Assembly: GCA_023431055.1 (NCBI GenBank)
Contig: JAEYXX010000099.1
Location: 1 to 28,384 of the forward strand
Reading direction: 5' to 3'
From: Pseudomonadota bacterium
GTDB lineage: Bacteria; Pseudomonadota; Gammaproteobacteria; Pseudomonadales; Pseudomonadaceae
DNA length: 28,384 nt
Both the position numbers and the translations under genes were made by a program. The notes beneath the pieces are model-generated. The model was not told where the DNA came from. It searched no databases and was given only the letters and a program-made list of their open reading frames with translations. Below, in pieces: positions 5,903-25,091 of this stretch (positions are counted from its first letter, which is position 1; each line of letters begins with the position of its first letter).

Positions 5903-6052
5903 TGGCGATCCTTTATAGCGGGCGGAAGTTCCGCAAAAACATGGGGTGATTCTGGGCCTGTGGCGCGAAAGGGATCAAGGTTTGATTCAGCTCAGGGTGA
6001 AAAATCCGGGCCGGGATAAGCTGTCCATCACCTTCCTTGCGCGAAAGCCGCC

Positions 6053-7033
6053 ATGTCCAGTGCCCAACACCTGCATCTCCCCGTCCTGCATGCCGCCCGC
6101 CAGGACTACGCTGCGCTCAATCACCAGCTCAGCGTGCGTGAAGCGCTGGAGGACATCCGCACCCAGGGCCTGGGCGAGCGCATCATCTATTTCTATGTGG
6201 TCGACGATGAGCAGCGCCTGATCGGCGTGCTGCCCAGCCGTCGCCTGCTCACCGCGCCACTGGACGCCAAGCTGGTCGAACTGATGGATACGGCCGTGAT
6301 CGCGCTGCCCAATCGCGCGACCATCCTCGACGCCTGTCAGTTGCTGATCCGTCACCGCTTCCTGGCGCTGCCAGTCGTGGACGAGCAGCAGCGCCTGTGC
6401 GGCTTGGTGGATATCGCCCTGCTCAACGAAGAAAGCCATGACCTGCGCCAGCGCAACCAGGCTGATGCACTGTTCGAGACCCTGGGCTTTCACGTCGCCC
6501 AGGTTGGCAATGCTTCACCGTTCTGGGCCTTCCGCCTGCGTGTTCCCTGGCTGCTGGCGACCATTGCCAGCGGCACCCTCTGCGCCCTGCTGGCCAGCCT
6601 CTACGAGCTAACCCTGGCCAAGAGCATCGTCCTCGCCTTCTTCCTCACCCTGGTGCTGGGCCTGGGCGAGAGCGTGAGCATGCAATCGATGTCGGTGACC
6701 ATCCAGGCGCTACGCAGCGTCCGGCCCGATCTCGCCTGGTACCTGCGCAGCCTGCGCCACGAACTGCCGACTGCGCTATTGCTCGGCAGCACCTGCGGCA
6801 GCGTGGTGGCGATGATCGTCTGGCTATGGCGCGACGAAGCCTGGACCGGCCTGATCATCGGCGGCAGCATTCTGTTGTCACTCTGCGCAGCCTGCCTGCT
6901 CGGCCTCAGCGTGCCGACGCTGCTGCACGCACTGAGGCTCGACCCGAAGATCGCCGCAGGGCCGGTGACCCTGGCAGTCACCGACCTGTGCACGTTGCTG
7001 TTCTATTTCAGTCTGGCCGCCTGGCTACTGTGA
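6053..7033 (+). CDS. MgtE-like magnesium transporter without the MgtE_N domain
   Basis: A 326-residue membrane protein with two CBS motifs (about residues 40-130) followed by five transmembrane segments (about 160-326) of the SLC41/MgtE type. The segment LGLGESVSMQSMSVTIQALR corresponds to the first pore motif, and VTDLCTLLFYFSLA near the C-terminus holds the conserved Asp of the last helix. The product would carry divalent cations, mainly Mg2+, across the inner membrane, with the CBS pair acting as gate sensor. It is shorter than the 450-residue MgtE proteins because the N-terminal helical MgtE_N domain is missing. The start at 6053 gives a short leader before the CBS region. Its end overlaps the convergent DksA-type gene by 31 bp. 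Confidence 0.85.
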   Translation: MSSAQHLHLPVLHAARQDYAALNHQLSVREALEDIRTQGLGERIIYFYVVDDEQRLIGVLPSRRLLTAPLDAKLVELMDTAVIALPNRATILDACQLLIRHRFLALPVVDEQQRLCGLVDIALLNEESHDLRQRNQADALFETLGFHVAQVGNASPFWAFRLRVPWLLATIASGTLCALLASLYELTLAKSIVLAFFLTLVLGLGESVSMQSMSVTIQALRSVRPDLAWYLRSLRHELPTALLLGSTCGSVVAMIVWLWRDEAWTGLIIGGSILLSLCAACLLGLSVPTLLHALRLDPKIAAGPVTLAVTDLCTLLFYFSLAAWLL

Positions 7034-7347
7034 TCACCCAGGTCTTCGGCGCAGCGTAGGCAGTATTCGGCCACCGGCAGAGCGGCGAGGCGCGCCGCCT
7101 CGATCGGCTCGCAGCAGCACAGGCATTCGCCATAACGCCCCTCGGCCAGTCGCTGCTGGGCCTGACGCACCAACAACAGGCCATGTTCGGCCTCGACCAG
7201 CAACGCTTCGAGCACTTCATCATTCTGCCGTTGCTGCGCCTGCTCGGCGAAGTCCGCCGAGTGAGTGCGCGCCAGGTCGCGGCGAATCGCCTCGGCGCGC
7301 GACGTGTATTCATGCAGCAGAGCATCCAGCACATCACGGTGAGCCAT
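7003..7347 (-). CDS. DksA/TraR-type zinc-finger protein (YbiI-like)
   Basis: A 114-residue protein with an N-terminal helical region and the C-terminal zinc finger YGECLCCCEPIEA then EYCLRCAED, the C4 arrangement of the DksA/TraR family. Such proteins bind the RNA polymerase secondary channel or remain uncharacterised (YbiI group). Start choice: AAGGAG lies seven bases before the ATG at 7347, while a nearby ATG at 7353 would be too close to it. An extra Cys (CCC) sits beside the first pair. The gene converges on the mgtE-like gene and is divergent from the Lnb_N gene. Confidence 0.85.
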   Translation of the reverse strand: MAHRDVLDALLHEYTSRAEAIRRDLARTHSADFAEQAQQRQNDEVLEALLVEAEHGLLLVRQAQQRLAEGRYGECLCCCEPIEAARLAALPVAEYCLRCAEDLGDHSSQAARLK

Positions 7348-7490
7348 GAGCATTCTCCTTGCTTGTGAAGAACGCTCAGTGTGCTGCGCAGCGCGCCACT
7401 CATGACTGACGCCGATCAGCACTTGCGCGAAATGTCGTGTTCGACTGCCTTGACACCAGTCGGCAGCCTGGCCAAAGCTCGGCCATCGCC

Positions 7491-9344
7491 ATGACCAGAA
7501 GAACAGCGACCTTGAAACGGATATTCGCCGTCCTTGCCCTGAACTTCAGCCTTCCCCTGCACGCAGCCACAGCCGAAACGCTGGCTACCGATCCGTACTG
7601 GATTGCCCTCGGCCACTACGAAACCGGCAAGCTCGGCGGTTGGCGCAGCTATGTCGACGACGACGACTTCTTCCTCGCCGAGGATGGCGCCAGCGACCCG
7701 GCCGCCGAACTGCAGGCGACCCTCAGGGCCCTGTATCAGCCTGCCGAACTGGGCGACCGCCACCCACAATGCGTCTACCCCGCGCGCACTCGCTGGCTCA
7801 AGGCACAACTGCAACTCGATGACCTGCCCAGCCCGGACTGCGCCGAATATCGCAACTGGTTCGCCGACATCAATCCGCACAGCACGGTGCTGGTGTTTCC
7901 GGCGGCCTATCTGAACAGCCCTTCGTCGATGTTCGGCCACACCCTGCTGCGCATCGACCAGCCCGATATCGACAGCCACAACACTGCACTGCTGAGCTAC
8001 GCGCTGAACTTCGGCGCCTTCATCGAAGGTGACGACAACAGTGTTCTCTATGCCTGGCGCGGGCTGATGGGCGGCTACCCCGGTCTGTTCGCCCTGGTGC
8101 CGTATCGCGACAAGCTCAGCGAGTACAACCGCCTGGAAAACCGTGACCTGTGGGAATACCGGCTGAACCTGACGCCGGAAGAAACCGCACGCATGATCGA
8201 GCACGTCTGGGAGCTCAAGCAGATCCGCTTCGACTACTTCTTCTTCGACGAGAACTGCTCCTACCGCCTGCTCGAACTGCTGGAGATCGGCCGCCCCGGT
8301 ATCGAACTGACCGAGCACTTTCCGCTCACCGCCATCCCCACCGACACCGTGCGCGCCGTCAAGGACGCCGGGCTGGTGGAGCGCATCGACTATCGCCCCT
8401 CGCGCGAGCGCGAACTGCTGGCGCGCGCCGAACCGCTGGACAGCGACGAACAGAACTGGGCACTGCGCCTGAGCGAAGATCCGTCGCAGCTCGGCGATGC
8501 TGACTTCCTCACCCTGCCAGCAGAACGTCGAGCACTGATCCAGGACGCCGCCTTCCGCCTGGTGCGCTACCACGCCAATAGCGAGGAACGCAGCAGCAAT
8601 GCCCAGCGCAGCTTCCAGCTGCTTGGCGCGATCAACCGCAACCCGCCGCCGCCGCTGGAGGTCGAGCGCCCGCCGTTGCCCGAGGAAGGCCACCAATCGC
8701 GTACCTGGCAACTGGCCGGCGGCAGCCGCGATGATCGCGCCTTCGCCGAATACGGCCTGCGCATGGCCTACCACGACCTGAACGACAACCTGGACGGTTT
8801 CCCGCTCGGCGCACAGATCGAGATTCTTCAGCTCAAGCTGCGCCAGTACGAGAACAATCACTGGCAACTGCAGCGCCTGGACCTGGCCAACATCCGTTCG
8901 CTGACACCGCGCAACGCCCTGCTGCAGCCGCTTTCCTGGCAGATCGGCGGCGGCCTGGAACGCGTGCTCGGCGAAAATGGCGACACCCCGCTGGTCGGCC
9001 ATATCAGCGGCGGCGCCGGTGCCACCTGGCAGTTGCACCCCGACCTGCTCGGCTTCGCCCTGGGCACCGCGCGCCTGGAATACAACGAGGATTTCGCTGC
9101 CGTGGTCTCCCCCGCCGCGGGCTTCAATAGCGGCCTGCTATGGCGCAACCCGCTGGGCAACCTGACGTTGGAGGCGGCCGGCGATTACTTTCACAACGGC
9201 GAAGTGCGCCGACGTCTGTCGCTCAACCAGCAATGGGAAGTCTCGCGCAACCTCGGCCTGCGCCTGAGCGCCCAGCGCGAGTTCAGCCAGCTCGCCAGCC
9301 CGGTCAATGAGGTGAAGCTGGAGCTGCGCTGGTATCACTACTGA
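7491..9344 (+). CDS. Lnb_N (DUF4105) domain envelope protein
   Basis: A 617-residue exported protein. The first 28 residues form a Sec signal peptide (positively charged MTRRTATLKR, hydrophobic FAVLALNFSLPL, then HAATA). The DUF4105/Lnb N-terminal domain follows at about residues 110-280, with the conserved His150 in SSMFGHTLLRID and Cys256 in FFDENCSYRLLELLE, a Cys-His pair resembling a thiol-enzyme active site. The C-terminal half (about 400-617) is rich in alternating aromatic strands and ends in WYHY, suggesting an outer-membrane beta-barrel-like region. Lnb proteins of Gram-positive bacteria transfer acyl chains on lipoproteins; whether this Gram-negative relative does so is unknown. ATG at 7491 is chosen over the upstream in-frame ATG because it starts the signal peptide. 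Confidence 0.82.
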   Translation: MTRRTATLKRIFAVLALNFSLPLHAATAETLATDPYWIALGHYETGKLGGWRSYVDDDDFFLAEDGASDPAAELQATLRALYQPAELGDRHPQCVYPARTRWLKAQLQLDDLPSPDCAEYRNWFADINPHSTVLVFPAAYLNSPSSMFGHTLLRIDQPDIDSHNTALLSYALNFGAFIEGDDNSVLYAWRGLMGGYPGLFALVPYRDKLSEYNRLENRDLWEYRLNLTPEETARMIEHVWELKQIRFDYFFFDENCSYRLLELLEIGRPGIELTEHFPLTAIPTDTVRAVKDAGLVERIDYRPSRERELLARAEPLDSDEQNWALRLSEDPSQLGDADFLTLPAERRALIQDAAFRLVRYHANSEERSSNAQRSFQLLGAINRNPPPPLEVERPPLPEEGHQSRTWQLAGGSRDDRAFAEYGLRMAYHDLNDNLDGFPLGAQIEILQLKLRQYENNHWQLQRLDLANIRSLTPRNALLQPLSWQIGGGLERVLGENGDTPLVGHISGGAGATWQLHPDLLGFALGTARLEYNEDFAAVVSPAAGFNSGLLWRNPLGNLTLEAAGDYFHNGEVRRRLSLNQQWEVSRNLGLRLSAQREFSQLASPVNEVKLELRWYHY

Positions 9345-10059: not shown

Positions 10060-11664
10060 TCAGTTGCTGTGCAGATCCTTCCACTCCAGACCGAAGCGCG
10101 CCAGATACTTGCGCAGGCGATCCGCGTCGTTGGGCTGCGCCTTGGACAGTCGCGACACCTGATACAAACGGCGCCCGGCGTCGGACAGGCTATCGGCCTG
10201 ACGACACACCTCCAGCACAGCCTGCAATTGCAGGCGATCGAACAGATCCAGGCCGTCCGCTGCTTCGCCCAGCAATGCACTCAGCCCATCGTCCTCGCCC
10301 ACCTGCCCCCAGGCTCTGCGCAGGCGCTCGATCTCCTCACGCACCTGTTCTTCATCGATACGCCCGCTGTCGGCCAGGGTCGCCATGCGCGTGATCGAGG
10401 CCGACAGCTCACGGAAGTTGCCCTGCCAGGCAGCCTCGCTGGAACTGGCGAAGGCCAGATAGAGCCGCCGCGCCTCCAGGTTGAAGCGCACCATCCGCCC
10501 CTGTTCGCGGGCGTGGCGCTCCAGCTCGAAATCGATGTTCGGCTCGATGTCCTCGCGCCGCCCAGCCAGGCCCGGCAACTCGAATGTCCACAGGTTGATA
10601 CGGGCGTAAAGGTCTTCGCGAAACAGCCCTTCGGCCACCCGCGTGCGCAGATCACGGTGAGTGCCGGCGATCAGCAGAAAATCGCTGCTCACCTCCTTGT
10701 CCGAACCCATGGGGAAGAAGCGCTTTTCCTCGATGGCCTTGAGTAGCATGGCCTGCTCGTCCAGGCCCAGCTCACCGATCTCGTCGAGAAACAGCATGCC
10801 GCCATCAGCCGAACGCAGCAGGCCGTCGCGGGCATTCTGCGCGCCGGTGAAGGCCCCCTTGATATGGCCAAACAGCGCCGACATGGCGCCATCGCCGCGC
10901 AGCGTGGCGCAGTTGACCTCGACGAAGCGACCATCCACCAGATGCCGGCTGCGCTTGAGTTCGTACACGCGCCGCGCCAGGAACGACTTGCCGGCACCGG
11001 TCGGGCCGATCAGCAGCATGGGCGCCGAGGAGCGCACGGCGACTCGCTCGATCTGCTCGATGGAGCGGTTGAAGGCGGCATTGCGTGTGGCGATGCCCGA
11101 CTTGAGAAAGGCCAGCCCCTCCAGACGCGTATTCTGAAAGCGTGAGGCGATACGGTCATAGCGCGACAGATCCAGGTCGATCAGCGTGTAAGTGCCTGTG
11201 ACCGGATCGACCTCGGCGCGCCTGCGCGTGGGTGAAGTTTGTATCAGCCGTGCCGGCAGGTAGCGCGCCTCGGTCAGCAGGAACCAACAGATCTGCGCGA
11301 CGTGCGTACCGGTGGTGATATGCACGAGATAGTCCTCGTGTTCGGTATCGAAGGCATAGGCGCTGGTGAAGTCATGCAGCGCGCCGTACACCTCCTCGAA
11401 ATCCCAAGGGTTGCGCAGCTGCATCGACTGCAGACGTACCTCGGTTTCCGGAGAGATCTGCGCAATATCCGCAGCAATGCGCTCGGCAAGGCCGATATCA
11501 CGTGCGTCGGAGCCGTGGATCAGCTCCAGACGGTCGATCAGCAGATCCGGCTGCTGGCACAGGCCGATGCTCGGCCGCCATTTGTTCCAGCGATTGGCAC
11601 CCTTGCCGACCCGATCCAGAGTGGTGCCGATAAAGCCGATGGCGACGGTACGCTTGCGAATCAT
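10060..11664 (-). CDS. rtcR: RtcR, CARF-AAA+ sigma-54 transcriptional activator
   Basis: A 534-residue bacterial enhancer-binding protein that turns on the RNA-repair operon. Residues 1-180 form the CARF (RtcR_N) sensor, beginning RKRTVAIGFIGTTLD, with HITTGTHVAQI at 115-125 typical of the ligand site. The AAA+ domain (about 185-425) has Walker A GPTGAGKS at 220-227, the sigma-54 contact loop GAFTGA at 270-275 and Walker B LFLDEIGE at 291-298. The C-terminus (about 475-525) is the helix-turn-helix region. In known RtcR proteins the CARF domain relieves autoinhibition on binding RNA with a 2',3'-cyclic phosphate end. The ATG at 11664 follows GAGGA by six bases. It is divergent from rsr, whose promoter it should control. 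Confidence 0.96.
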   Translation of the reverse strand: MIRKRTVAIGFIGTTLDRVGKGANRWNKWRPSIGLCQQPDLLIDRLELIHGSDARDIGLAERIAADIAQISPETEVRLQSMQLRNPWDFEEVYGALHDFTSAYAFDTEHEDYLVHITTGTHVAQICWFLLTEARYLPARLIQTSPTRRRAEVDPVTGTYTLIDLDLSRYDRIASRFQNTRLEGLAFLKSGIATRNAAFNRSIEQIERVAVRSSAPMLLIGPTGAGKSFLARRVYELKRSRHLVDGRFVEVNCATLRGDGAMSALFGHIKGAFTGAQNARDGLLRSADGGMLFLDEIGELGLDEQAMLLKAIEEKRFFPMGSDKEVSSDFLLIAGTHRDLRTRVAEGLFREDLYARINLWTFELPGLAGRREDIEPNIDFELERHAREQGRMVRFNLEARRLYLAFASSSEAAWQGNFRELSASITRMATLADSGRIDEEQVREEIERLRRAWGQVGEDDGLSALLGEAADGLDLFDRLQLQAVLEVCRQADSLSDAGRRLYQVSRLSKAQPNDADRLRKYLARFGLEWKDLHSN

Positions 11665-11691
11665 GTTCAATCCTCGTAGATCCTCAGCATC

Positions 11692-11726
11692 TTATCCAAA
11701 AAGATAAACTACTATCTATATAGATA
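11692..11726. promoter_or_regulatory. Candidate RtcR upstream activating sites
   Basis: Two palindromes stand in the rtcR-rsr intergenic region about 110-150 bp upstream of the -24 element. TTATC at 11692-11696 pairs with GATAA at 11703-11707, and TATCTATATAGATA at 11713-11726 is a perfect 14-bp palindrome. Position and symmetry fit enhancer sites for a sigma-54 activator, but I know no consensus for RtcR with which to confirm them. Confidence 0.45.
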
Positions 11727-11795
11727 TCAGAGAGCTGAAACCGACCAGCTCAAGATCCAGCAAAAAACATAGCGAATAAAAATAAAAAACTTACA

Positions 11796-11808
11796 AATCA
11801 ATAAGTTA
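11796..11808 (+). promoter_or_regulatory. IHF site between enhancer and promoter
   Basis: AATCAATAAGTTA matches the IHF consensus WATCAANNNNTTR at every defined position and lies in a strongly AT-rich stretch. It is midway between the palindromic enhancer candidate and the -24/-12 promoter, where IHF bending normally brings a sigma-54 activator to the polymerase. Confidence 0.6.
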
Positions 11809-11837
11809 AATAAAAATATAAACTTAAAAGATAAACC

Positions 11838-11853
11838 TGGCACAGCCGCTGCA
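11838..11853 (+). promoter_or_regulatory. Sigma-54 (-24/-12) promoter of the rsr-rtcBA operon
   Basis: TGGCAC at 11838-11843 and CTGCA at 11849-11853 place the invariant GG (11839-11840) and GC (11851-11852) exactly ten bases apart, as required for RpoN. Transcription should start near 11864, about 30 bp before the rsr ATG. The neighbouring RtcR is a sigma-54 activator, which supports the call. Confidence 0.85.
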
Positions 11854-11893
11854 ACAGTCCTGACAACAACGGACAACACAGCGAGACGCCAAG

Positions 11894-13444
11894 ATGGCCA
11901 ACTTCAACCTGTTCAACACCCGCCAAGCCCAGCTGCCGGCCAGCGACACGCTGAACAAACAGCAGGCGCCGGCTTATGCCTACAAGCCCAAGCACAAGCT
12001 GGCCCAGTTGGCGGTCACCGGTTGCCTGAACCAGACGTTCTACGCCGATGCGCAAACCCAGTTGGCCGAAGTGCTCAAGCTGGTCGGCGAGCTGGACGCC
12101 CGCTACGTGGCCAAGGCCGCGCTCTATGCCCGCAAGAAGGGCCACATGAAGGACATGCCGGCCCTGCTGCTGGCAGCCCTGACCGCACAACGCTCGAGCC
12201 TGGTGCCGGCCTTATTCGAGCAGGTGGTGGATAACGGCAAGATGCTGCGCACCTTCGTGCAGATCCTGCGTAGCGGCGTGACCGGACGCAAGTCGCTCGG
12301 CTCGCAGCCCAAGCGCCTGGTGCAGAACTGGCTGAACACCGCCAGCGAACGCCAACTGCTGCAGGCCGCAGTCGGCAACCAGCCGTCGCTGGCCGACGTG
12401 GTGAAGATGGTTCACCCCAAGCCGAGCGAGGCCTGGCGTGAAGCCTTCTTCGCCTGGTTGATCGGCAAGCCGACCGATGCTGCTGCCCTGCCGCCGCTGA
12501 CCCGCGCCCTGCTGGCGTTTCGCAGCGGCGCGAGCAGCGAGTTGCCGGACGTGCCGTTCCAGCTGCTCGGCAACGAGACGCTGAGCGCGGAGCAATGGGC
12601 CGAACTGGCTGGTCGCATGGGTTGGCAGGCGCTGCGCATGAACCTCAATACCCTGGTGCGCCATGGCGCATTTGCGGTCGAGGGCTGTGCCGAAATGGTG
12701 GCGCGGCGTCTGGCCGATGGCAAGGCGATAGCAAAAGCGCGGGTCTACCCGTACCAGCTGCTGGCGGCTTACCGCATGACCGGCGACGGCGTGCCAACGA
12801 CGGTGCGCGAGGCGCTGCAGGATGCTCTGGAGCTGTCGCTGAGCAATGTACCGGCGCTGAGCGGCCAGGTGGTGGTGTGCCCGGACGTGTCCGGCTCGAT
12901 GGCGAGCCCGGTGACCGGCTACCGCCAGGGCGCGACCACGGCGGTGCGCTGCGTCGACGTGGCAGCGCTGGTGGCCGCGGCGATCCTGCGCAAACAGCCG
13001 CAGGCCCAGTTGCTGCCGTTCGAGAACAAGGTGGTGAAGATGACGCTCAACCCACGTGACAGCGTGATGAGCAACGCTTCGAGGCTGGCAGCGATCTGCG
13101 GCGGCGGCACCAGTTGCTCCGCCCCGCTGAAGCAGTTGGCAGACGCCAAGGCGAAAGTGGATACGCTGATTCTGGTTTCCGACAACGAATCCTGGATCGA
13201 CGCCCGTCGCCATGGCGCCACCGAGACGCTGCGTCAGTGGGAGCGGATCAAGCAGTTCAACCCGCAAGCGCGGCTGATCTGCATCGACCTGCAGCCCCAT
13301 GGCACCACACAGGCGCCGGATCGTGCGGACATCCTGAATGTCGGCGGCTTCAGCGACGCGGTGTTCGACGTGGTGGCACAGTTCGCCAGCGGCAACTTCG
13401 GCGCCGGCCACTGGGTCGACGCCATCGAGCAGATGGAGATATGA
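11894..13444 (+). CDS. rsr: Rsr, bacterial Ro60 ortholog (TROVE-vWA)
   Basis: A 516-residue RNA-binding ring protein. The TROVE domain of HEAT-like helices covers about residues 18-320, including YVAKAALYARKKGHMKDMPA at 71-90. The C-terminal von Willebrand A domain (325-510) keeps the MIDAS residues: Asp331, Ser333 and Ser335 in DVSGSMAS, Thr406 in GGGTSCS and Asp430 in LVSDNES. Ro60 holds misfolded RNA ends in its ring and binds Y RNA on its outer face; bacterial Rsr uses Y RNA to dock onto exonucleases such as PNPase. The first gene behind the sigma-54 promoter, it is followed directly by a Y-RNA-like array, which supports its role. The ribosome site is weak (GCGAGAC). Confidence 0.95.
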   Translation: MANFNLFNTRQAQLPASDTLNKQQAPAYAYKPKHKLAQLAVTGCLNQTFYADAQTQLAEVLKLVGELDARYVAKAALYARKKGHMKDMPALLLAALTAQRSSLVPALFEQVVDNGKMLRTFVQILRSGVTGRKSLGSQPKRLVQNWLNTASERQLLQAAVGNQPSLADVVKMVHPKPSEAWREAFFAWLIGKPTDAAALPPLTRALLAFRSGASSELPDVPFQLLGNETLSAEQWAELAGRMGWQALRMNLNTLVRHGAFAVEGCAEMVARRLADGKAIAKARVYPYQLLAAYRMTGDGVPTTVREALQDALELSLSNVPALSGQVVVCPDVSGSMASPVTGYRQGATTAVRCVDVAALVAAAILRKQPQAQLLPFENKVVKMTLNPRDSVMSNASRLAAICGGGTSCSAPLKQLADAKAKVDTLILVSDNESWIDARRHGATETLRQWERIKQFNPQARLICIDLQPHGTTQAPDRADILNVGGFSDAVFDVVAQFASGNFGAGHWVDAIEQMEI

Positions 13445-13448
13445 GAAC

Positions 13449-13474
13449 GCGCCCGGCCAATTGGGGCCGGGCGC
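13449..13474 (+). terminator. GC-rich hairpin behind rsr
   Basis: GCGCCCGGCC and GGCCGGGCGC form a perfect 10-bp stem with a six-base loop, starting four bases after the rsr stop. No T tract follows, so it is more likely a 3'-end protector or processing signal separating the rsr message from the Y-RNA-like segment than a full terminator. Confidence 0.5.
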
Positions 13475-13492
13475 ACAGATCAACGATTCGAG

Positions 13493-13552
13493 CGTATTCG
13501 AATGCTGATGGGACTACATCCCAGACGTCTCATCACGAACTTGTCGACTACG
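13493..13552 (+). ncRNA. Y-RNA-like element Y0 (no tRNA-like part)
   Basis: CGTATTCGA at 13493-13501 pairs with TCGACTACG at 13544-13552 (eight of nine positions). Inside it is the shared core CGAATGC and TGATGGGA, and a small hairpin TGGGA(CTACA)TCCCA at 13509-13523. It has neither T nor D arm. The shared core and position make it a probable minimal member of the array that follows; ends are estimated from pairing. Confidence 0.5.
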
Positions 13553-13558
13553 AGCGAA

Positions 13559-13646
13559 GGCACGAATGCCAGTGGCTGTACATGGGTTATGCCGGTTTCG
13601 ATACCGGCCCGTGGCAACACGGAACAGTCACTTATCTTGTCGTGCC
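13559..13646 (+). ncRNA. Y-RNA-like element Y1 (T arm and closed acceptor, no D arm)
   Basis: The closing stem is GGCACGA (13559-13565) with TCGTGCC (13640-13646), continued by AGTGGCTGT (13571-13579) with ACAGTCACT (13624-13632). The apical part has a T-arm-like hairpin GCCGGT(TTCGAT)ACCGGC at 13591-13608 followed by CCGTG(GCAA)CACGG at 13609-13622, an acceptor-like stem shut by a GCAA tetraloop. No D arm is present. The core CGAATGCC is shared with Y2-Y4. Ends are inferred from pairing only. Confidence 0.65.
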
Positions 13647-13663
13647 ACCTGATTCACGGTTTT

Positions 13664-13794
13664 GCGACGAATGCCGGTGGAACTACACCCTTCCACGGTC
13701 GAGATGCGGGTTCGAATCCCGTCGGCTCCATCACTGGGGGGCCGTAGTTCAATGGCAGAACACGAAAATATGTTTCACCACTCTTTGTCGTCGC
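13664..13794 (+). ncRNA. YrlA-like Y RNA Y2 with permuted tRNA domain
   Basis: The closing stem is GCGACGA (13664-13670) with TCGTCGC (13788-13794), followed by GGTGGAAC (13676-13683) with GTTTCACC (13772-13779). GACGAATG fits the GNCGAAN(0-1)G motif I recall for Ro-bound bacterial Y RNA stems. Inside, in order: T arm GCGGG(TTCGAAT)CCCGT at 13706-13722; acceptor-like CGGCTCC (13723-13729) with GGGGCCG (13738-13744), closed by an eight-base loop; and D arm GTTC(AATGGCA)GAAC at 13747-13761. This order is that of a tRNA opened at the anticodon. A T run (ATCTTTTT) follows the stem at once. It lies between rsr and rtcB in the same orientation. Confidence 0.82.
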
Positions 13795-13805
13795 ATCTTT
13801 TTCAG

Positions 13806-13912
13806 GCAGCGAATGCCTTGGGTACTTACATTGGGTCGCGGGTTCGAGTCCCGCCAGCCGCAAGGCTGTAGCTCAGTCGGTAGAGCAAATGTGCCCATCA
13901 CCTCGTCGCTGC
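13806..13912 (+). ncRNA. YrlA-like Y RNA Y3 with permuted tRNA domain
   Basis: The closing stem GCAGCGA (13806-13812) pairs with TCGCTGC (13906-13912), and GGGTAC (13820-13825) with GTGCCC (13891-13896). The inserted tRNA mimic is the cleanest of the array: T arm GCGGG(TTCGAGT)CCCGC at 13838-13854 with a canonical seven-base T loop, acceptor-like CAGCC(GCAA)GGCTG at 13855-13868, and D arm GCTC(AGTCGGTA)GAGC at 13871-13886. It has the core CGAATGCC. The absence of any anticodon arm and the order T-acceptor-D rule out an ordinary tRNA. Confidence 0.85.
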
Positions 13913-13914
13913 AC

Positions 13915-13937
13915 GGAGGCCCGCCTCCACCATTTTT
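13915..13937 (+). terminator. Hairpin with T run between Y3 and Y4
   Basis: GGAGG(CCCG)CCTCC at 13915-13928 is followed by ACCA and TTTTT at 13933-13937. It resembles a weak intrinsic terminator or an RNase-processing linker within the operon. Partial termination here would lower rtcB relative to Y1-Y3. Confidence 0.45.
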
Positions 13938-13944
13938 ATTGACC

Positions 13945-14059
13945 CGGCGAATGCCGGTGGAACTACAGGACGTGAAGGTTGCGGGTTCAAATCCCGCCCC
14001 GGCAACGGGTAGCTCAACTGGATAGAGCAACGCGCATGTTTCACCAACGATTGTCGCCG
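13945..14059 (+). ncRNA. YrlA-like Y RNA Y4 with permuted tRNA domain
   Basis: CGGCGA (13945-13950) pairs with TCGCCG (14054-14059), and GGTGGAAC (13956-13963) with GTTTCACC (14038-14045), the latter identical in sequence to the inner stem of Y2. Inside are T arm GCGGG(TTCAAAT)CCCGC at 13981-13997, acceptor-like CCCG(GCAA)CGGG at 13998-14009 and D arm GCTC(AACTGGATA)GAGC at 14012-14028. GGCGAATG fits the Ro-binding motif. It is the last element before rtcB. Confidence 0.82.
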
Positions 14060-14071
14060 CACTGCAAACAC

Positions 14072-14086
14072 GCTGGCCCGGCCAGC
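14072..14086 (+). promoter_or_regulatory. Small hairpin in the rtcB leader
   Basis: GCTGGC(CCG)GCCAGC folds as a six-base stem 18 bp before the rtcB start region. It may mark a processing point or affect ribosome access; no T tract follows. Confidence 0.35.
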
Positions 14087-14104
14087 CCGAATTACGAGTG
14101 AGTG

Positions 14105-15334
14105 ATGATGCAAACCAAGACCTACAACCTGCTGGAAGTCGCCAATGGCAAGCCGATCAAACTGTGGACGCAAGGCGTACCGGTTGAAGAAGACGCCAAG
14201 CAGCAATTGATGAACACCGCGAAGATGCCCTTCATCTTCAAGCACCTGGCCGTGATGCCAGACGTGCACCTGGGTAAGGGTTCGACCATCGGCAGCGTGA
14301 TCCCCACGGTCGGCGCCATCATCCCGGCTGCGGTCGGGGTGGATATCGGTTGCGGCATGATCGCCGCGCGCACCTCGCTGATGGCGCACGACCTGCCGGA
14401 TAACCTGGCCGGGCTGCGCGCCGCCATCGAGAAAGCCGTACCGCACGGGCGCAGCAACACGCGCACCGGTCGCGACCGGGGTGCCTGGGAGAACGTGCCG
14501 GAGATGGCCGACCATGCCTGGTCGGCGCTGAGCGAGCGCTTCAAGGTCATCACCGACAAGTACCCGCGCTTGGAGAAAACCAACAACCGCAAGCACCTGG
14601 GAACCCTGGGTACCGGCAACCACTTCATCGAGGTCTGCCTGGATGAGGCGGGCCGCGTCTGGTTCATGCTGCACAGCGGTTCGCGCGGTGTAGGTAACGC
14701 CATCGGCAACCTGTTCATCGAACTGGCCCAGTCCGATATGCGCCAGCACATCGCCAACCTGCCGGACCGTGACCTGGCCTACTTCGAAGAAGGCAGCCGG
14801 CACTTCGATGACTACGTCGAAGCGGTGGGCTGGGCGCAGGACTTCGCCAAGCAGAACCGCGCACTGATGATGCACGCGGTGATCGCGGCGGCACGAGGCG
14901 TGATCGCCAAGCCGTTCGAGGTGGCGCTGGAGGCGGTGAACTGCCACCACAACTACGTGCAGAAGGAACGTCACTTCGGTGAAGAAGTGCTGGTAACCCG
15001 TAAAGGCGCGGTGTCGGCGAAAAAGGGCGAACTGGGCATCATCCCCGGGTCCATGGGCGCCAAGAGCTACATCGTGCGCGGCCTGGGTAACGAGGAGGCA
15101 TTCTGCTCCTGCAGCCACGGCGCCGGGCGAACCATGAGCCGAACCAAGGCGAAGAAGATCTTCACCATCGAAGATCAGATCCGCGCCACGGCTCATGTGG
15201 AATGCCGTAAGGACGCCAATGTGATCGACGAAATCCCGATGGCCTACAAGGACATCGACCAGGTAATGGACGCCCAGCGTGAGCTGGTGGAAGTGGTGCA
15301 CACCCTGCGTCAGGTGGTGTGCGTGAAAGGATAG
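14105..15334 (+). CDS. rtcB: RtcB, RNA 3'-phosphate/5'-hydroxyl ligase
   Basis: A 409-residue GTP- and Mn2+-dependent RNA ligase that joins 2',3'-cyclic-phosphate or 3'-phosphate ends to 5'-OH ends. Metal and active-site motifs are complete: MPDVHLGKGSTIGSV (51-65), VGVDIGCGM with Asp80 and Cys83, GTGNHFIEV with His173, LHSGSRGVG with His190, CHHNY at 280-284, and CSCSHGAGRTMSR, in which His338 is the guanylylated residue. Three starts are possible (GTG 14102, ATG 14105, ATG 14108); the leader GAGTGAG is a poor ribosome site, so the exact start is uncertain by one or two codons. It follows the Y-RNA array and is four bases from the HEAT gene, so co-translation is likely. Confidence 0.96.
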   Translation: MMQTKTYNLLEVANGKPIKLWTQGVPVEEDAKQQLMNTAKMPFIFKHLAVMPDVHLGKGSTIGSVIPTVGAIIPAAVGVDIGCGMIAARTSLMAHDLPDNLAGLRAAIEKAVPHGRSNTRTGRDRGAWENVPEMADHAWSALSERFKVITDKYPRLEKTNNRKHLGTLGTGNHFIEVCLDEAGRVWFMLHSGSRGVGNAIGNLFIELAQSDMRQHIANLPDRDLAYFEEGSRHFDDYVEAVGWAQDFAKQNRALMMHAVIAAARGVIAKPFEVALEAVNCHHNYVQKERHFGEEVLVTRKGAVSAKKGELGIIPGSMGAKSYIVRGLGNEEAFCSCSHGAGRTMSRTKAKKIFTIEDQIRATAHVECRKDANVIDEIPMAYKDIDQVMDAQRELVEVVHTLRQVVCVKG

Positions 15335-15338
15335 GAAG

Positions 15339-16690
15339 ATGAAGTACCTGAAAGACTGGCTGGAGCGGTTGAAAAGCCGCCCGGCTTCCGGCGACTACTG
15401 GGAAGATCGACGCCATCAAGAGGCGCGTGAGGCATTGGCTACCTGTCAGGGTGCTGGCGACTGGTTCACCCTCAGCACCCATCACAACGGTTTCGTGCGC
15501 GAGGTCGCGGTGCGCGAGCTGAGCGAACAGCCCTCGCCTGCTGCACTGCAAGCACTGCTCGAACGGGTCAACGATTGGGTACCGCAGGTGCGTGAGTTGG
15601 CTGTAGTGGCTGTTCAGCGCTACCTGGCCCCGCATACGCCGCTGCCCTGCTGTACGCTCTGCCTCAACTGATGGCTCTGGCAGAGCGCCAGCGCGCCGAC
15701 CACGGCCCATTGCTGGCGACAGCTCGCCAGGTCTTGCAGGTGCATGCAATACGAGGCGACGTAGTAACTGCGTTCATCGCCAGCCACGGCCGAGCCGCAC
15801 GCTTTCTCTTCGCCTTGCTACTGGAGGCCAGCAGCAAGCCGGTCGACTTGCTGCGCATAGCCCTGGTTCATCGCGAGATGACGGTGCGGCAGATGGCAGT
15901 GCAAGCCTGTCGGGCACTTCCCGGTGAGCATGCAGTGCCGCTGCTGCTGCATGCGCTGAAGACGCCGGGGGCAAGCGTGCGGGTCAAAGCCTTGCATGCG
16001 TTGCTGGGGTTGCTCGACAACCCGCGCGAGTTGCTATGCGGCGCGTTGCTAGATGCCTCGCCTGCCGTGCGCAACCTGGCACGCTGGGCCGCGCCACGCT
16101 GGCAGCTCGACGCTAGGGCAACGCTTGACGCTCGCCTGCGTCAACCGCTGCCGCAGCGCAAGCAGGAATGGCTGGGTGTGCTTGGCCTGGCCAGCGAGCT
16201 GGGCGTTGCCCTGGACGAAGTATGGCGCGACGCCGCTCTACGCTCGCCGCTGAGCAGCGTACGCCTGGCCGCCGTGGCGGGTCTCGATGACGCCCAGCTG
16301 AGTGATCGCTTGGCAGCGCTGGACGATCCTGCGGACAAGGTTTTCGCCAAGGCACTGGAGGGTCTTTGCAGACAACCCTGGGCAGCGCTGGCGAGTGCGC
16401 TCGACGCCCGGCTCGACCGCGACTGGCACCGCCTGCCAGCAACGCGACGCCAAGCCCTGATGCGCCTGCGTCCGCGCTGGCAGCAACTGGCTTACCTGCT
16501 ACAGCGCCTGGACGCCAGTCCTGACGAGCAGGACACCTGGCTGGATTGGATCGCCAACTGGTGCCAGCAGCAGTACCTGATGATCGATCCGACCACGACA
16601 AAAGCCGACCGAGAACGGTTGATTGAGCGGGTTCGAGCTCTGGAGAACAGCGGCGCACTGCCAGGCGGCTGCACACTCCGTCTGACATGA
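15339..16690 (+). pseudogene. HEAT-repeat protein of the rtc operon, split by a frameshift
   Basis: The frame starting at the ATG 15339 (GGAAG just before) reads 110 residues to a TGA at 15669-15671. The sequence then continues in the -1 frame to 16690 (ALLYALPQLMALAERQRADH and 330 further residues). Both halves are alpha-helical HEAT/armadillo-like repeats: EVAVRELSEQPSPAALQALL in the first; EMTVRQMAVQACRALPGEHA and SVRVKALHALLGLLDNPREL in the second. The break lies near 15638-15645, where adding one base after CAT would restore a protein of about 450 residues. No slippery heptamer is visible, so a one-base deletion or a sequencing error is likelier than programmed frameshifting. Placed between rtcB and rlaP, it is probably an RNA-repair accessory or scaffold; its biochemical role is unknown. 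Confidence 0.75.
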
Positions 16691-16806: not shown

Positions 16807-17595
16807 ATGGACATGCAACAACACCACCCACTCAGCGACGCCATGCGCGCGCGGGTGTTGGAAGAACTCGAGCGGCTCGAGCGCGAGCGCAACGTCAAGG
16901 TGCTGTATGCCTGCGAATCGGGCAGCCGCGCCTGGGGCTTCGCCTCGCCGGACAGCGATTACGACGTGCGCTTCGTCTATGTGGAGAAGCCCGGCTGGTT
17001 CGTCCAGGTCGACGCGCCGCGTGACGTGATCGAACGACCACTGGACGACGAACTGGATGTCAGCGGCTGGGAACTGCGCAAGACCCTGGGCCTGCTGCGC
17101 AAATCCAACCCGACGCTGCTGGAGTGGCTCGACTCGCCGCTGGTGTATCGCCAGGAAGACGAGTCAACGGCGCGCCTGCGCGAGCTGGCCGAGCACTTCT
17201 ATAGCCCGCCGGCAGCGCGCAATCACTACCTGTCGATGGCCAGGAAGAACTTCCGCGGCTACCTGCAGGATGAGACGGTGCGTTTCAAGAAGTACTTCTA
17301 CGTGCTGCGCCCGCTGCTCGCTGTGCTGTGGATCGACCAGGGCCGTGGCCGGCCGCCGATGACCTTTGCCGAGCTGCTGCAGACGGTAGACGATCCAGCA
17401 CTGCTGGCTGAGGTGGACGAACTGCTGACCCTCAAGCGCAGCGCCGACGAGTCCGCCTATGGCCCGCGTCGCCCCGCCCTGCATGCGTTCATCGAAACGC
17501 AACTGGAACAGCCAGTGCCGAGCCTGCCGCGCACTCGCGCAGACAGCGGTCTGCTCGACGCCTACCTGCGCGAGACGGTGAAACGCTACGCCTGA
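16807..17595 (+). CDS. RlaP-type nucleotidyltransferase (RNA repair, PF10127)
   Basis: A 262-residue DNA polymerase beta-superfamily nucleotidyltransferase. The catalytic motif GSRAWGFASPDSDYDVRF lies at 39-56: Gly39-Ser40 of the nucleotide loop and the metal-binding Asp51 and Asp53. Later motifs KYFYVLRPLLAVLWI and RPPMTF fit the RlaP (RNA repair-associated nucleotidyltransferase, COG3541) family. Such genes are known companions of rtcB/rtcA operons and may add or restore nucleotides on RNA ends, but the reaction is not settled. ATG at 16807 (MDMQQHHPLS) is the likely start; a second frame opening at 16798 is a shadow. It stands 116 bp behind the HEAT gene and 135 bp before rtcA. Confidence 0.88.
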   Translation: MDMQQHHPLSDAMRARVLEELERLERERNVKVLYACESGSRAWGFASPDSDYDVRFVYVEKPGWFVQVDAPRDVIERPLDDELDVSGWELRKTLGLLRKSNPTLLEWLDSPLVYRQEDESTARLRELAEHFYSPPAARNHYLSMARKNFRGYLQDETVRFKKYFYVLRPLLAVLWIDQGRGRPPMTFAELLQTVDDPALLAEVDELLTLKRSADESAYGPRRPALHAFIETQLEQPVPSLPRTRADSGLLDAYLRETVKRYA

Positions 17596-17730: not shown

Positions 17731-18756
17731 ATGAACAAGGACCTTATCGAGCTGGACGGCGCCATCGGCGGCGGCCAGATACTGCGCAGCGCGCTGAGCC
17801 TGTCGATGATCACCGGCAAGCCGTTTCGCATTCACAACATCCGCGCCAAGCGCAGCCGCCCAGGCCTGCTGCGTCAGCATCTCACGGCTGTAACGGCGGC
17901 CGCGCAGATCAGCTCGGCCCGCGTGGAAGGCGCGCAGCTCGGCTCGCAGAGCCTGAGTTTTGCGCCCGCTGCGATCCAGGGTGGCGACTATGACTTCGCC
18001 ATCGGCACCGCAGGTAGCTGCAGCCTGGTGATGCAGACACTGCTGCCCGCCCTGCTGCAAGCCGACCAGCCCAGCCGGGTACGCATCAGCGGCGGCACGC
18101 ACAATCCACTGGCGCCGCCCTTCGAGTTTCTCGAACGGGCCTGGCTGCCGCTGCTCCGGCGCATGGGCGCGCAGGTGGAGATCGAACTGCTGCGACACGG
18201 CTTCGCACCGGCCGGTGGCGGTGCAATCGAGCTGCAGGTCGTGCCGTCGATGCTAAGCCCTCTGCACCTGAAGGCGCCTGGCGTCGCTCACAATCAGCTG
18301 GCCACTGCCATAGTGGCGGATGTGCCAGGCCATGTGGCCGAGCGCGAGCTGGCGCGTGTCGGCAAGCGCATGAAGTGGCCGGAACAGGCACTGAAAGGCA
18401 TCTGGCTGGACAAGCAGATCGGCCCGGGCAACGTGTTGCTGCTGGAAATCGCCTGCGAGCACGTTACCGAGGTATTCAGCAGCATCGGCCAGAGCAGCGT
18501 GCGTGCCGAGCAGGTCGCGGATCAGGCTGTGGAGCAGGCGCGGCAGTGGCTGCACAGCGGCGCAGCCGTGGCCGAGCACCTAGCCGATCAGTTGCTCCTG
18601 CCACTGGCCATGGCCGGAGGCGGCAGCTTCAGCACAACGCACATGAGCGAACATCTGGATAGCAACATGCAGGTGATCCAGCACTTCCTGGATGTAGCCA
18701 TTACCTGCACCCAAACCAATGAACGCGTCCTGCAGGTGGAACTGCGGCGTCGCTGA
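17731..18756 (+). CDS. rtcA: RtcA, RNA 3'-terminal phosphate cyclase
   Basis: A 341-residue ATP-dependent enzyme that turns RNA 3'-phosphate into 2',3'-cyclic phosphate and thus supplies or restores RtcB substrates. Family motifs: ELDGAIGGGQILRSALSLS at 7-25, RPGLLRQHLTAV, GGTHNPLAPPFEFL, HGFAPAGGGAIEL and, at the C-terminus, SEHLDSNMQVIQHFL, in which His308 corresponds to the adenylylated histidine. Length matches E. coli RtcA. The start at 17731 is preceded by AAGGA. It is the last gene of the sigma-54 operon. Confidence 0.96.
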   Translation: MNKDLIELDGAIGGGQILRSALSLSMITGKPFRIHNIRAKRSRPGLLRQHLTAVTAAAQISSARVEGAQLGSQSLSFAPAAIQGGDYDFAIGTAGSCSLVMQTLLPALLQADQPSRVRISGGTHNPLAPPFEFLERAWLPLLRRMGAQVEIELLRHGFAPAGGGAIELQVVPSMLSPLHLKAPGVAHNQLATAIVADVPGHVAERELARVGKRMKWPEQALKGIWLDKQIGPGNVLLLEIACEHVTEVFSSIGQSSVRAEQVADQAVEQARQWLHSGAAVAEHLADQLLLPLAMAGGGSFSTTHMSEHLDSNMQVIQHFLDVAITCTQTNERVLQVELRRR

Positions 18757-22135: not shown

Positions 22136-22492
22136 GGGGCCGATTAGGATTCGACGCCGGTAGCGAAACTTGAGGGGCATGCCGAGTAGGTGACAGTTCT
22201 CGTAAATCCGCTGCCACAACTTCATAGTTGCCAACGACGACAACTACGCTCTGGCCGCCTAAGGGCGCCAGCTGACCCTAGGGGATGCCTGTAAACCCGA
22301 AGATCTGGTCAGTCATATAGAACAGGATCGCCGCCAAGTTCGCTGCAGACGTAACGGCTAAAACTCATGCAGCTCGCTCCAAGCACCCTGCCACTCGGGC
22401 GGCGCGGAGTTAACTCAATAGAGATGGCTAAGCATGTAGAACCAATAGCGGAGAGCTGGCGGACGGGGGTTCAAATCCCCCCGGCTCCACCA
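22136..22492 (+). ncRNA. ssrA: tmRNA (transfer-messenger RNA)
   Basis: A 357-base tmRNA. The 5' end GGGGCCGATTAGGATTCGAC and the 3' end GGTTCAAATCCCCCCGGC...CCACCA are the two tRNA-like ends; GGGGCCG pairs with CGGCTCC to make the acceptor stem. The tag frame at 22230-22262 reads ANDDNYALAA then TAA, the proteolysis tag of Pseudomonas. tmRNA with SmpB rescues stalled ribosomes. The 3' end doubles as an attachment site for the island that follows. Confidence 0.97.
22469..22485 (+). other. attL candidate in the ssrA 3' end
   Basis: GTTCAAATCCCCCCGGC, within the T arm and acceptor of tmRNA, recurs with one change at 25135-25151. tmRNA 3' ends are common targets of P4-type tyrosine integrases, and an integrase stub starts about 190 bp downstream. 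Confidence 0.55.
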
Positions 22493-24985: not shown

Positions 24986-24995
24986 ATCAGTCACC

Positions 24996-25091
24996 GGCAC
25001 TTTAATGCCCAAACAGTAGACGCACACGCACAAAAAGGCAATTCAATGCCTAAAAAATCATCTTAGCCACAGAATAAGGCATTAAAGTGCC
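24996..25091 (-). promoter_or_regulatory. hipA-hipB promoter with three evenly spaced operators
   Basis: Three 14-bp near-palindromes of the form GGCA-N6-TGCC lie at 24996-25009 (GGCACTTTAATGCC), 25037-25050 (GGCAATTCAATGCC) and 25078-25091 (GGCATTAAAGTGCC, the inverse of the first). Their starts are exactly 41 bp apart twice, about four helical turns. A promoter on the minus strand, TTGCCT (25041-25036) with TACTGT (25018-25013) and a 17-base spacer, overlaps the middle operator. This fits autorepression by the HipB-like protein, which in E. coli also uses several operators. Confidence 0.75.

Follow-up and report, generated by a model that had tools for sequence, protein, structure and literature searches.

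The window analysed here is a stretch of 28,384 nt from a member of the Pseudomonadaceae (GenBank assembly GCA_023431055.1, contig JAEYXX010000099.1, positions 1 to 28,384 of the forward strand) and contains an RNA repair gene cluster. The genes are ordered rtcR (divergent, on the minus strand), rsr, an array of Y RNA genes, rtcB, two HEAT-repeat reading frames, RlaP and rtcA. The rsr product is matched by the solved Rsr of Deinococcus (PDB 2nvo, E 1.3e-26). The 663 bp interval between rsr and rtcB holds all five units of the array, which are the subject of this paper. An earlier sequence-only reading of this DNA had reported five tandem Y RNA-like genes between rsr and rtcB, and this observation is confirmed. 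The coordinates of the features are given in Table 1.

The five units and their heads

The motif CGAATGC is found at positions 13499, 13563, 13668, 13810 and 13948, and downstream of every copy there is TTGTCG or TCGTCG with complementary flanks. When the unit caller was run on 500 dinucleotide-preserving shuffles of the interval it found a mean of 0.004 units and never more than one, compared with five in the real sequence. The motif positions and the shuffles bear out the claim that each unit has CGAATGC near its 5' end and a complementary closing strand. The closing stem of six to nine pairs described for all units is supported by the complementary flanks in each of them, but in unit 1 it is broken by a T.C mismatch. 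Leaving out the CGA/TCG core, the four outer positions form 3, 4, 4, 4 and 3 pairs with the cognate strand in units 1 to 5, whereas non-cognate strands within the window give 0 to 3.

In all five units the ends pair as a basal stem, followed by an AUGC...UUG internal loop (UCG in unit 4) and a second helix. Class alignments across Pseudomonas show the same design: a basal stem, an ATGC...TTG loop, a roughly 8 bp second helix, in most cases TACA, and finally the head. All five units also adjoin a Ro60-like rsr gene, as bacterial Y RNA genes do. Judged by sequence and structure, the five units are Y RNA genes.

The units differ in their heads, a heterogeneity that, like the transfer RNA (tRNA)-like heads of units 3 to 5, went unmentioned in the sequence-only reading. 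Units 3, 4 and 5 have a T-arm, an acceptor-like stem and a D-arm in permuted order, unit 2 has a T-arm-like hairpin only and unit 1 has neither. The head of unit 3 is at tRNA dimensions, with a 5 bp T-stem, a 7-base loop, a 7 bp acceptor-like stem, TA and a 4 bp D-stem. This geometry of T-arm plus D-arm was fitted to 124 units from 81 loci, 50 of them with a perfect 7 bp stem; some of the 124 fits are doubtful and 10 have 0 or 1 contiguous acceptor pairs.

Two of the checks proposed in the sequence-only reading, a covariance-model search and an alignment of the interval across Pseudomonas, were made. The Rfam YrlA model (RF02553, cut-off 69 bits) passes its cut-off for units 5 and 4 and falls below it for unit 3, and compensatory changes are seen in every class of the alignment. 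The score of unit 2 with this model (29.0 bits, E 4e-4) is also below the cut-off. In G001, the nearest comparison genome, the counterpart of unit 2 scores 27.0 bits with the YrlA model, and places overlapping tRNAs score 28.1, 27.1 and 25.8 bits. Units 1 and 2 are far below the cut-off of the YrlB model (RF02565, 97 bits), which scores unit 2 at 15.8 bits. Our own covariance model R1 scores unit 1 at 73.1 bits, the window sequence itself being part of the model.

Table 1. Features of the rtcR to rtcA region of the window
Feature	Position	Strand	Evidence or remark
rtcR, sigma-54 activator of RNA repair operon	10060..11670	-	Pfam RtcR E 2.6e-85; Sigma54_activat E 1.4e-48
Sigma-54-like -24/-12 element, TGGCACAGCCGCTGC	11838..11852	+	56 nt before rsr ATG
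rsr, Ro60-like ring protein	11894..13444	+	Pfam vWA_Ro60 E 1.3e-21; TROVE E 9.9e-9
Strong G+C hairpin	13448..13474	+	Just 3' of rsr, read directly; similar in several relatives, not in L020 or L030
Unit 1, headless Y RNA, YrlB-like layout	13493..13552	+	Basal stem, ATGC, 8 bp middle helix, TACATC loop
Unit 2, Y RNA with T-arm-like hairpin, no D-arm	13559..13646	+	Class alignment, covariation
T-arm-like hairpin of unit 2, loop TTTCGATA	13591..13608	+	Class-2 alignment
Second hairpin of unit 2	13609..13622	+	Two pairs with compensatory changes in relatives; absent in 11/34
Unit 3, Y RNA with tRNA-like head, 7 bp acceptor-like stem	13663..13795	+	Rfam YrlA 59.7 bits, E 6e-13
T-arm of unit 3	13706..13722	+	
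Acceptor-like stem of unit 3, CGGCTCC-ATCACTGG-GGGGCCG	13723..13744	+	14 stem bases equal those of the window tmRNA
D-arm of unit 3	13747..13761	+	
Unit 4, Y RNA of YrlA type, 5 bp acceptor-like stem	13806..13912	+	Rfam YrlA 72.9 bits, above cut-off
T-arm of unit 4	13838..13854	+	
D-arm of unit 4	13871..13886	+	With preceding TA, equals tRNA-Asn of G001, 18/18
Terminator-like hairpin and T tail between units 4 and 5	13915..13938	+	
Unit 5, Y RNA of YrlA type, 4 bp acceptor-like stem	13945..14059	+	Rfam YrlA 87.1 bits, above cut-off
T-arm of unit 5	13981..13997	+	
D-arm of unit 5	14012..14028	+	
rtcB, RNA ligase	14108..15334	+	Pfam RtcB E 8e-132
RlaP, RNA repair pathway DNA polymerase beta family protein	16807..17595	+	Pfam RlaP E 7e-96
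rtcA, RNA 3'-phosphate cyclase	17731..18756	+	Pfam RTC E 6e-79

Covariation and unit classes in Pseudomonas

For unit 1, 31 distinct sequences gave a covariation score of 0.415, compared with 0.142 in shuffles; none of 500 shuffles reached it and the score was at most 0.092 when the strands were slid. Both-sided changes were found in six of the eight basal pairs. The structure used for this unit was drawn by hand, as RNAalifold gave the basal stem and not the 8 bp middle helix. The scores for unit 2 (34 sequences, 0.147 vs 0.065 in shuffles) and unit 3 (18 sequences, 0.141 vs 0.091) were likewise reached by 0 of 500 shuffles. In unit 2 two of the seven basal pairs covary, and its second hairpin (helix 4) was also drawn by hand, RNAalifold not having predicted it. 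In unit 3 the changes lie in the acceptor-like stem and the basal stem is without both-sided change. RNAalifold reported both-sided changes in four pairs each for unit 4 (24 sequences) and unit 5 (23 sequences). Simple counts were weaker measures: that of both-sided pairs in unit 1 was equalled by 32 of 500 shuffles, and that of further pair types was reached by 23, 500 and 241 of 500 shuffles for units 1, 2 and 3, respectively. All these covariation figures are guides only, since relatedness is not modelled in the shuffles and the structures come from the very sequences tested.

The sequence-only reading had described covariation inside one locus. This is true of the comparison between paralogues, but in units 3, 4 and 5 the basal stem is nearly constant from one orthologue to the next and the covariation sits in the middle helix and the head.

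The first caller, which accepts only CGAATGC or CGAATGT, found 126 units in 43 Pseudomonas loci, window included. All but the first units of L046 and L047 could be put in classes (124/126), and for all 124 the best match in another locus falls in the same class when pairs more than 97% alike are skipped. The best orthologue is closer than the best paralogue in 118 of 119 units, with median similarities of 0.94 and 0.49, respectively; there is a small circularity in these comparisons, as the basal stem, the main basis of class assignment, is itself in the compared sequence. The headless unit is kept in 41 of the 43 loci by motif. R1 adds one in L041 (56.2 bits), and L013 yields only a longer unit with 32.2 bits. 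The basal stem of the headless unit varies by group with compensation, for example CGA/TCG in one group and CTGA/TCAG in another. As judged from these comparisons, the unit classes are lasting and have been apart for long in Pseudomonas. All five recur in the array of P. protegens (L023).

Arrays in related loci

We compared the window with 80 relative loci (L numbers), the best of 95 relatives from 126 pattern matches. They were picked by Rsr likeness and are no measure of bacteria at large. The three callers combined gave 317 units in 81 loci, with at least two units in 79. The first caller missed units with changed core pairs (TGA/TCA, TAA/TTA and others), and the fullest one misses unit 1 of L015 and L042, which are found by motif and by R1, so the unit counts are lower bounds. 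The expectation from shuffled sequence was 0.006, 0.004 and 0.002 units per interval for the three callers, the last from a simpler block shuffle. Called units range from 1 to 10 per locus; two loci have eight, and the locus with ten is that of Andreprevotia lacus (L084). A second model, R2, adds an eleventh unit there at 5757-5856 (E 1.9e-12). The eleven units of A. lacus lie at 5757-7906 in a 3 kb rsr-rtcB interval and some have changed core pairs. In Massilia (L064 and L065) a pair of units without T- or D-arm is repeated two or three times and is followed by a full mimic; the repeats are a sign of tandem duplication.

With R1, 157 hits at E<=0.1 were obtained in 762,659 bases; every one is on the plus strand, 3' of rsr and, where rtcB was found, before rtcB. 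R1 itself contains 33 sequences, and hit positions were judged by eye. No rtcB was found in L049, L051 or L052. R2 gave 106 hits in 377,122 bases (the window and 39 loci), of which one is on the minus strand (E 0.093). Arrays are the rule in these loci.

Genomes were also surveyed with the YrlA model. Among 398 evenly drawn Pseudomonas genomes, 34 have matches at E<=1e-9, 22 of them above the cut-off, and 17 of the 34 have at least two; one of 14 control genomes matched, below the cut-off. Among 398 genomes of the phylum there were matches at E<=1e-10 in seven, five with at least two, and no control matched. Of the 32 genomes behind the selected loci from outside Pseudomonas, 29 have matches at E<=1e-5 (15 above the cut-off), as do 3 of 14 controls. 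The interpretation in the sequence-only reading is thus upheld in part: there is an expanded set, of five conserved Y RNA-like genes with covariation in an rtcR-rsr-rtcB-RlaP-rtcA cluster, but arrays are common in related loci and the set is not peculiar to this genome.

Order of the heads along the array

Among the first caller's arrays of at least two units, 53 of 63 open with a unit that has no D-arm and close with one that does; 20.2 are expected, and none of 20,000 permutations of the units within arrays reached this number. When each of 15 groups is represented by one array, 10 of 15 are polar in this sense against 3.2 expected, a number reached once in 20,000 permutations; the groups are genera or metagenome-assembled genomes, and two of them (L082 and L083) are nearly alike. 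With all called units, 58 of 79 arrays are polar (20.6 expected, never reached in 5,000). This last count includes L019 and L034, whose D-arm labels are unsupported by alignment, and is 56 of 79 without them, a figure that was not re-permuted. A relaxed D-arm rule mislabelled class-2 units of L019, L032 and L034; the 53 of 63 count is free of this error but is based on fewer units. Outside Pseudomonas 17 of 36 arrays are polar against 7.5 expected (never reached in 5,000). All the permutation tests treat loci as independent, though they are related. As far as the called units go, the heads grow along the array, with exceptions, from headless next to rsr to a T-arm, acceptor-like stem and D-arm beside rtcB. 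The order rsr-yrlB-yrlA-rtcB-rtcA of Salmonella (PMC9879122) fits this rule.

Links to tRNA and tmRNA

The window has a transfer-messenger RNA (tmRNA) gene at 22136-22492, about 3.4 kb beyond rtcA, with the tag ANDDNYALAA, and its acceptor stem is that of unit 3. This identity may be due to chance or to sequence exchange. Because the stem of unit 3 has a G3.U70 pair and equals that of the tmRNA, and one Budvicia unit adds ACCA, we considered whether units might be processed in the manner of permuted pre-tRNAs and aminoacylated with alanine. As a general rule this was rejected. In 34 distinct genus-by-stem cases, 5'-G.U occurs at acceptor positions 1 to 4 in 4, 6, 9 and 7, the base after the acceptor-like stem is A in only 8, and NCCA follows in 4. 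Within Pseudomonas class 3, the G3.U70 site is U-G in 10 of 18 sequences and G-C in the other 8. ACCA does follow the acceptor-like stems of permuted units at L058 5661-5802 and L086 6225-6357, as if from real tRNA genes.

Two further ideas were set aside. We make no claim that the stems act as 'barcodes' against pairing between neighbours: full complementarity of the four outer positions with a wrong partner is less frequent within arrays (38 of 858 comparisons) than in cross-locus draws (9.2% of 20,000), but orthologues are part of that control. The idea that each head copies one particular tRNA was rejected because the D-arms of different tRNAs are too alike. A phage search gave one weak match only, to a mycobacterial prophage tRNA-Thr.

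Other genes in the window

The HEAT-repeat gene at 15339-16690 is split over two overlapping frames in the window. In 14 of 15 relatives with both parts found, the two matches are in one frame, and the window copy looks broken or may bear a sequencing error. Further from the array there is a Lon-like protease with AAA_32, LonC helical and Lon_C domains (3413-5902, minus strand), a HipA-like protein (23660-25033, minus strand; Pfam HipA_C, E 4e-29) and a protein with OsmC, YcaO and YcaO_C domains (25607-27805).

Transcription and proposed mechanism

A sigma-54-like element scoring at least 6/8 is present within 300 nt upstream of rsr in 74 of the 80 loci with enough upstream DNA, as a candidate by consensus match. 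No sigma-70-like promoter was found in a scan of the plus strand of 11650-14200. The sigma-54-like element 5' of rsr and the lack of a sigma-70-like promoter suggest that the array is most likely made from the rsr transcript and cut into pieces. The divergent rtcR, the sigma-54-like element (by consensus only), rtcB and rtcA are all present, as expected of an operon controlled by RtcR and sigma-54. In Salmonella, rsr-yrlB-yrlA-rtcB-rtcA is a single operon under RtcR and sigma-54, and PNPase is a binding partner of Rsr and YrlA (PMC9879122). RtcR binds broken 5' tRNA pieces ending in a 2',3'-cyclic phosphate (PMC7790460), Y RNAs attach to Rsr through the lower stem (PMC4726728), and the head of YrlA is said to bind PNPase, YrlA being modified by DusA and TruB (PMC8394870).

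We consider it probable that the five Y RNAs are made on one transcript under RtcR and sigma-54 and become separate RNAs that give alternative Rsr particles. The sequences show the genes themselves, how they are structured and conserved, their classes and the order of these; that they are transcribed together, processed and bound by Rsr, and what each head does, we infer. A transcript rsr-[Y1-Y5]-rtcB-...-rtcA would be switched on when tRNAs are broken, and the five units would be cut from it as separate small RNAs stabilised by Rsr. The shared module (basal stem, ATGC...TTG loop, second helix and TACA) would dock on Rsr. The headless Y RNA might merely cap the ring, and the headed ones could tether it to PNPase or to enzymes that recognise tRNA elbows. 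The sequence-only reading had suggested that one ring may be loaded with several different Y RNAs. Known Ro60 structures have one Y RNA stem per ring, so that the sensible form of that suggestion is a mixed ring population, each ring with one of the five RNAs. The result would be mixed Rsr particles, capped headless ones and headed ones with partners.

A more specific reading sees in the array an ordered kit whose heads can be exchanged on a single Ro60 ring (a headless cap, a hairpin head and elbow mimics with graded acceptor-like stems), with the classes kept apart by selection, so that tRNA damage would yield from one transcript several Rsr machines with different partners and unit 3 would be read by acceptor-stem enzymes. 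We put this forward tentatively and doubt it more than we credit it. It is made less likely by the class-2 units, only 19 of 40 of which have the T-loop motif, 21 lacking it.

Several observations, the missing T-loop motifs of class 2 among them, weigh against the main reading of alternative Rsr particles. Unit 1 has no significant family in Rfam (YrlB 15.5 bits, E 1.3; no YrlA match), the YrlA score of unit 2 is no evidence for it because tRNA-overlapping places score alike, and the score of unit 3 is below the cut-off. No YrlA match at E<=1e-5 was found in 3 of the 32 genomes mentioned above, those of L068, L073 and L078. Ten of the 63 first-caller arrays break the order of heads (L032, L041, L050, L051, L052, L063, L076, L079, L082 and L083). 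The Enterobacterales loci L058, L067 and L069 start with a full mimic when all units are called, as does L076; in L041 and L084 this holds for the caller alone, as R1 and R2 find smaller units ahead of the mimic. Fifteen of 79 arrays end, as called, in a unit with no D-arm. In addition, the repeated pairs of Massilia look like dosage, and some transcripts could stop at the hairpin that separates units 4 and 5.

Alternative explanations

The five RNAs might instead share one job, the array simply raising the amount of Y RNA per transcript. The docking module is common to all units, the copy number ranges from 1 to 10 called units per locus, and pairs of units are repeated in Massilia L064 and L065, all of which would fit dosage. 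Yet the Pseudomonas paralogues have long been distinct (similarity 0.49 against 0.94, and no cross-class best match in 124), and the heads differ in kind, which leaves this explanation unlikely. Unlikely too is the view that the units are decoys, with tRNA-like heads that keep tRNA-cutting nucleases or tRNA enzymes occupied while Rsr only stabilises them. That DusA and TruB modify YrlA (PMC8394870) speaks for it, as do the D-arms: that of unit 4 equals tRNA-Asn, that of unit 5 is nearest Arg-TCT (18/19) and that of unit 3 nearest Gly-TCC (15/17), among 28 distinct tRNAs from the 30 best of 58 tRNA matches in one genome. However, D-arms are alike among many tRNAs, so these matches say little; there is no anticodon arm and hence nothing for an anticodon-loop cutter; and the motif count shows unit 1 to be widely kept in Pseudomonas though it has no mimic.

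If the array were one long structured leader that sets rtcB output from the rsr promoter by attenuation or processing, separate RNAs would be unneeded. Inter-unit hairpins in several relatives and the one terminator-like hairpin between units 4 and 5 are what such a leader might contain, and a similar hairpin is present at the latter place in some relatives. Terminator-like sites are no commoner than chance, however (1 found vs 2.9 expected, not significant by count), every unit forms a separate domain, closed by a basal stem of its own and carrying the shared docking loop, and relatives drop whole units while the rest stays; we regard a leader as very unlikely. An Rfam tRNA call at 13738-13862 (RF00005, 32.6 bits, above the cut-off of 29), with a similar call in G001 at 911991-912114 (29.4 bits), raises the thought that remains of a tRNA gene lie here. 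In this call the unit 3 D-arm and the unit 4 T-arm are combined over the unit border, an artefact of tandem permuted units, and ARAGORN finds no tRNA at 13738-13862. No unit holds an anticodon arm and the helices that covary belong to the Y RNA structure, so we give this explanation almost no credence. Annotators should beware of false tRNA calls across unit borders. Separate Y RNAs from one transcript, giving alternative Rsr particles, remains the explanation that we favour.

Comparison with known systems

The tRNA-mimicking YrlA is like units 4 and 5, which score above its cut-off, and like unit 3, which is below it at E 6e-13; they share the docking loop, and the T- and D-arms of units 3 to 5 are permuted in the same way. 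The window differs in having several such units at one locus, in the acceptor-like stem of unit 3 (7 bp vs 5 and 4 bp in units 4 and 5) and in unit 2, which has no D-arm. No unit has the full set of four arms of a tRNA (acceptor, D, T and anticodon), the anticodon arm being absent from all. Unit 1 is like the YrlB of Salmonella, being short, headless and first after rsr, with a basal stem, AATGC, a middle helix ending in GA(C/T)TACAT, and TTGT; these three motifs also stand in the Rfam consensus of YrlB. Unlike YrlB it has 60 nt compared with a 78-position model, no small apical hairpin and no significant match to that model. By its design unit 1 is, in our view, the YrlB counterpart in Pseudomonas; we do not claim membership of the family. 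The YrlB model found nothing in 369 genomes in each of two draws, apparently of largely the same genomes; none is known to hold YrlB, so absence is not implied. The headless units, none of which reached the cut-off of the YrlB model in the loci tried, suggest that YrlB-like headless RNAs are commoner than the Rfam model shows.

The Salmonella rsr-yrlBA-rtcBA operon (PMC7790460, PMC9879122) shares with the window the divergent rtcR, rsr, the Y RNAs, rtcB and rtcA, and in both the short Y RNA is first and a mimic last. It has two Y RNAs, compared with five here and eleven in A. lacus, and the HEAT-repeat and RlaP genes between rtcB and rtcA are a feature of the window that sets it apart. In the RYPER of Deinococcus (Rsr, Y RNA and PNPase), the Y RNA links the ring to another machine (PMC8394870, PMC4726728). 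For the role of Y RNAs beyond the joining of Rsr to PNPase, the array is a natural series and a ready-made experiment on what heads do, as the docking module is kept, the head is removed or changed, and the series has lasted within a single cluster. Vertebrates have several Y RNAs (four clades) per Ro60, with variable loop domains (PMC4726728), but the genes described here share one orientation within a single operon-like cluster.

Listeria phage CKA15 (PMC12282133) possibly has a further set that serves a single Rsr: three highly transcribed regions lie at most 2 kb from an Rsr-like gene and the authors think that at least one may be a Y RNA. That system is in a phage, RtcB is absent from the main text of the paper, and the identity of the RNAs is left open by its authors. 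Unless these three RNAs count, none of the literature matches listed described a bacterial array with three or more Y RNAs, and we do not claim the first. Y RNAs, tRNA mimicry and a short-plus-long Y RNA pair in an RtcR operon were already known. As far as the literature consulted shows, what the present analysis adds is larger ordered arrays, a hairpin-headed class, a headless class beyond Salmonella and a class with a 7 bp acceptor-like stem.

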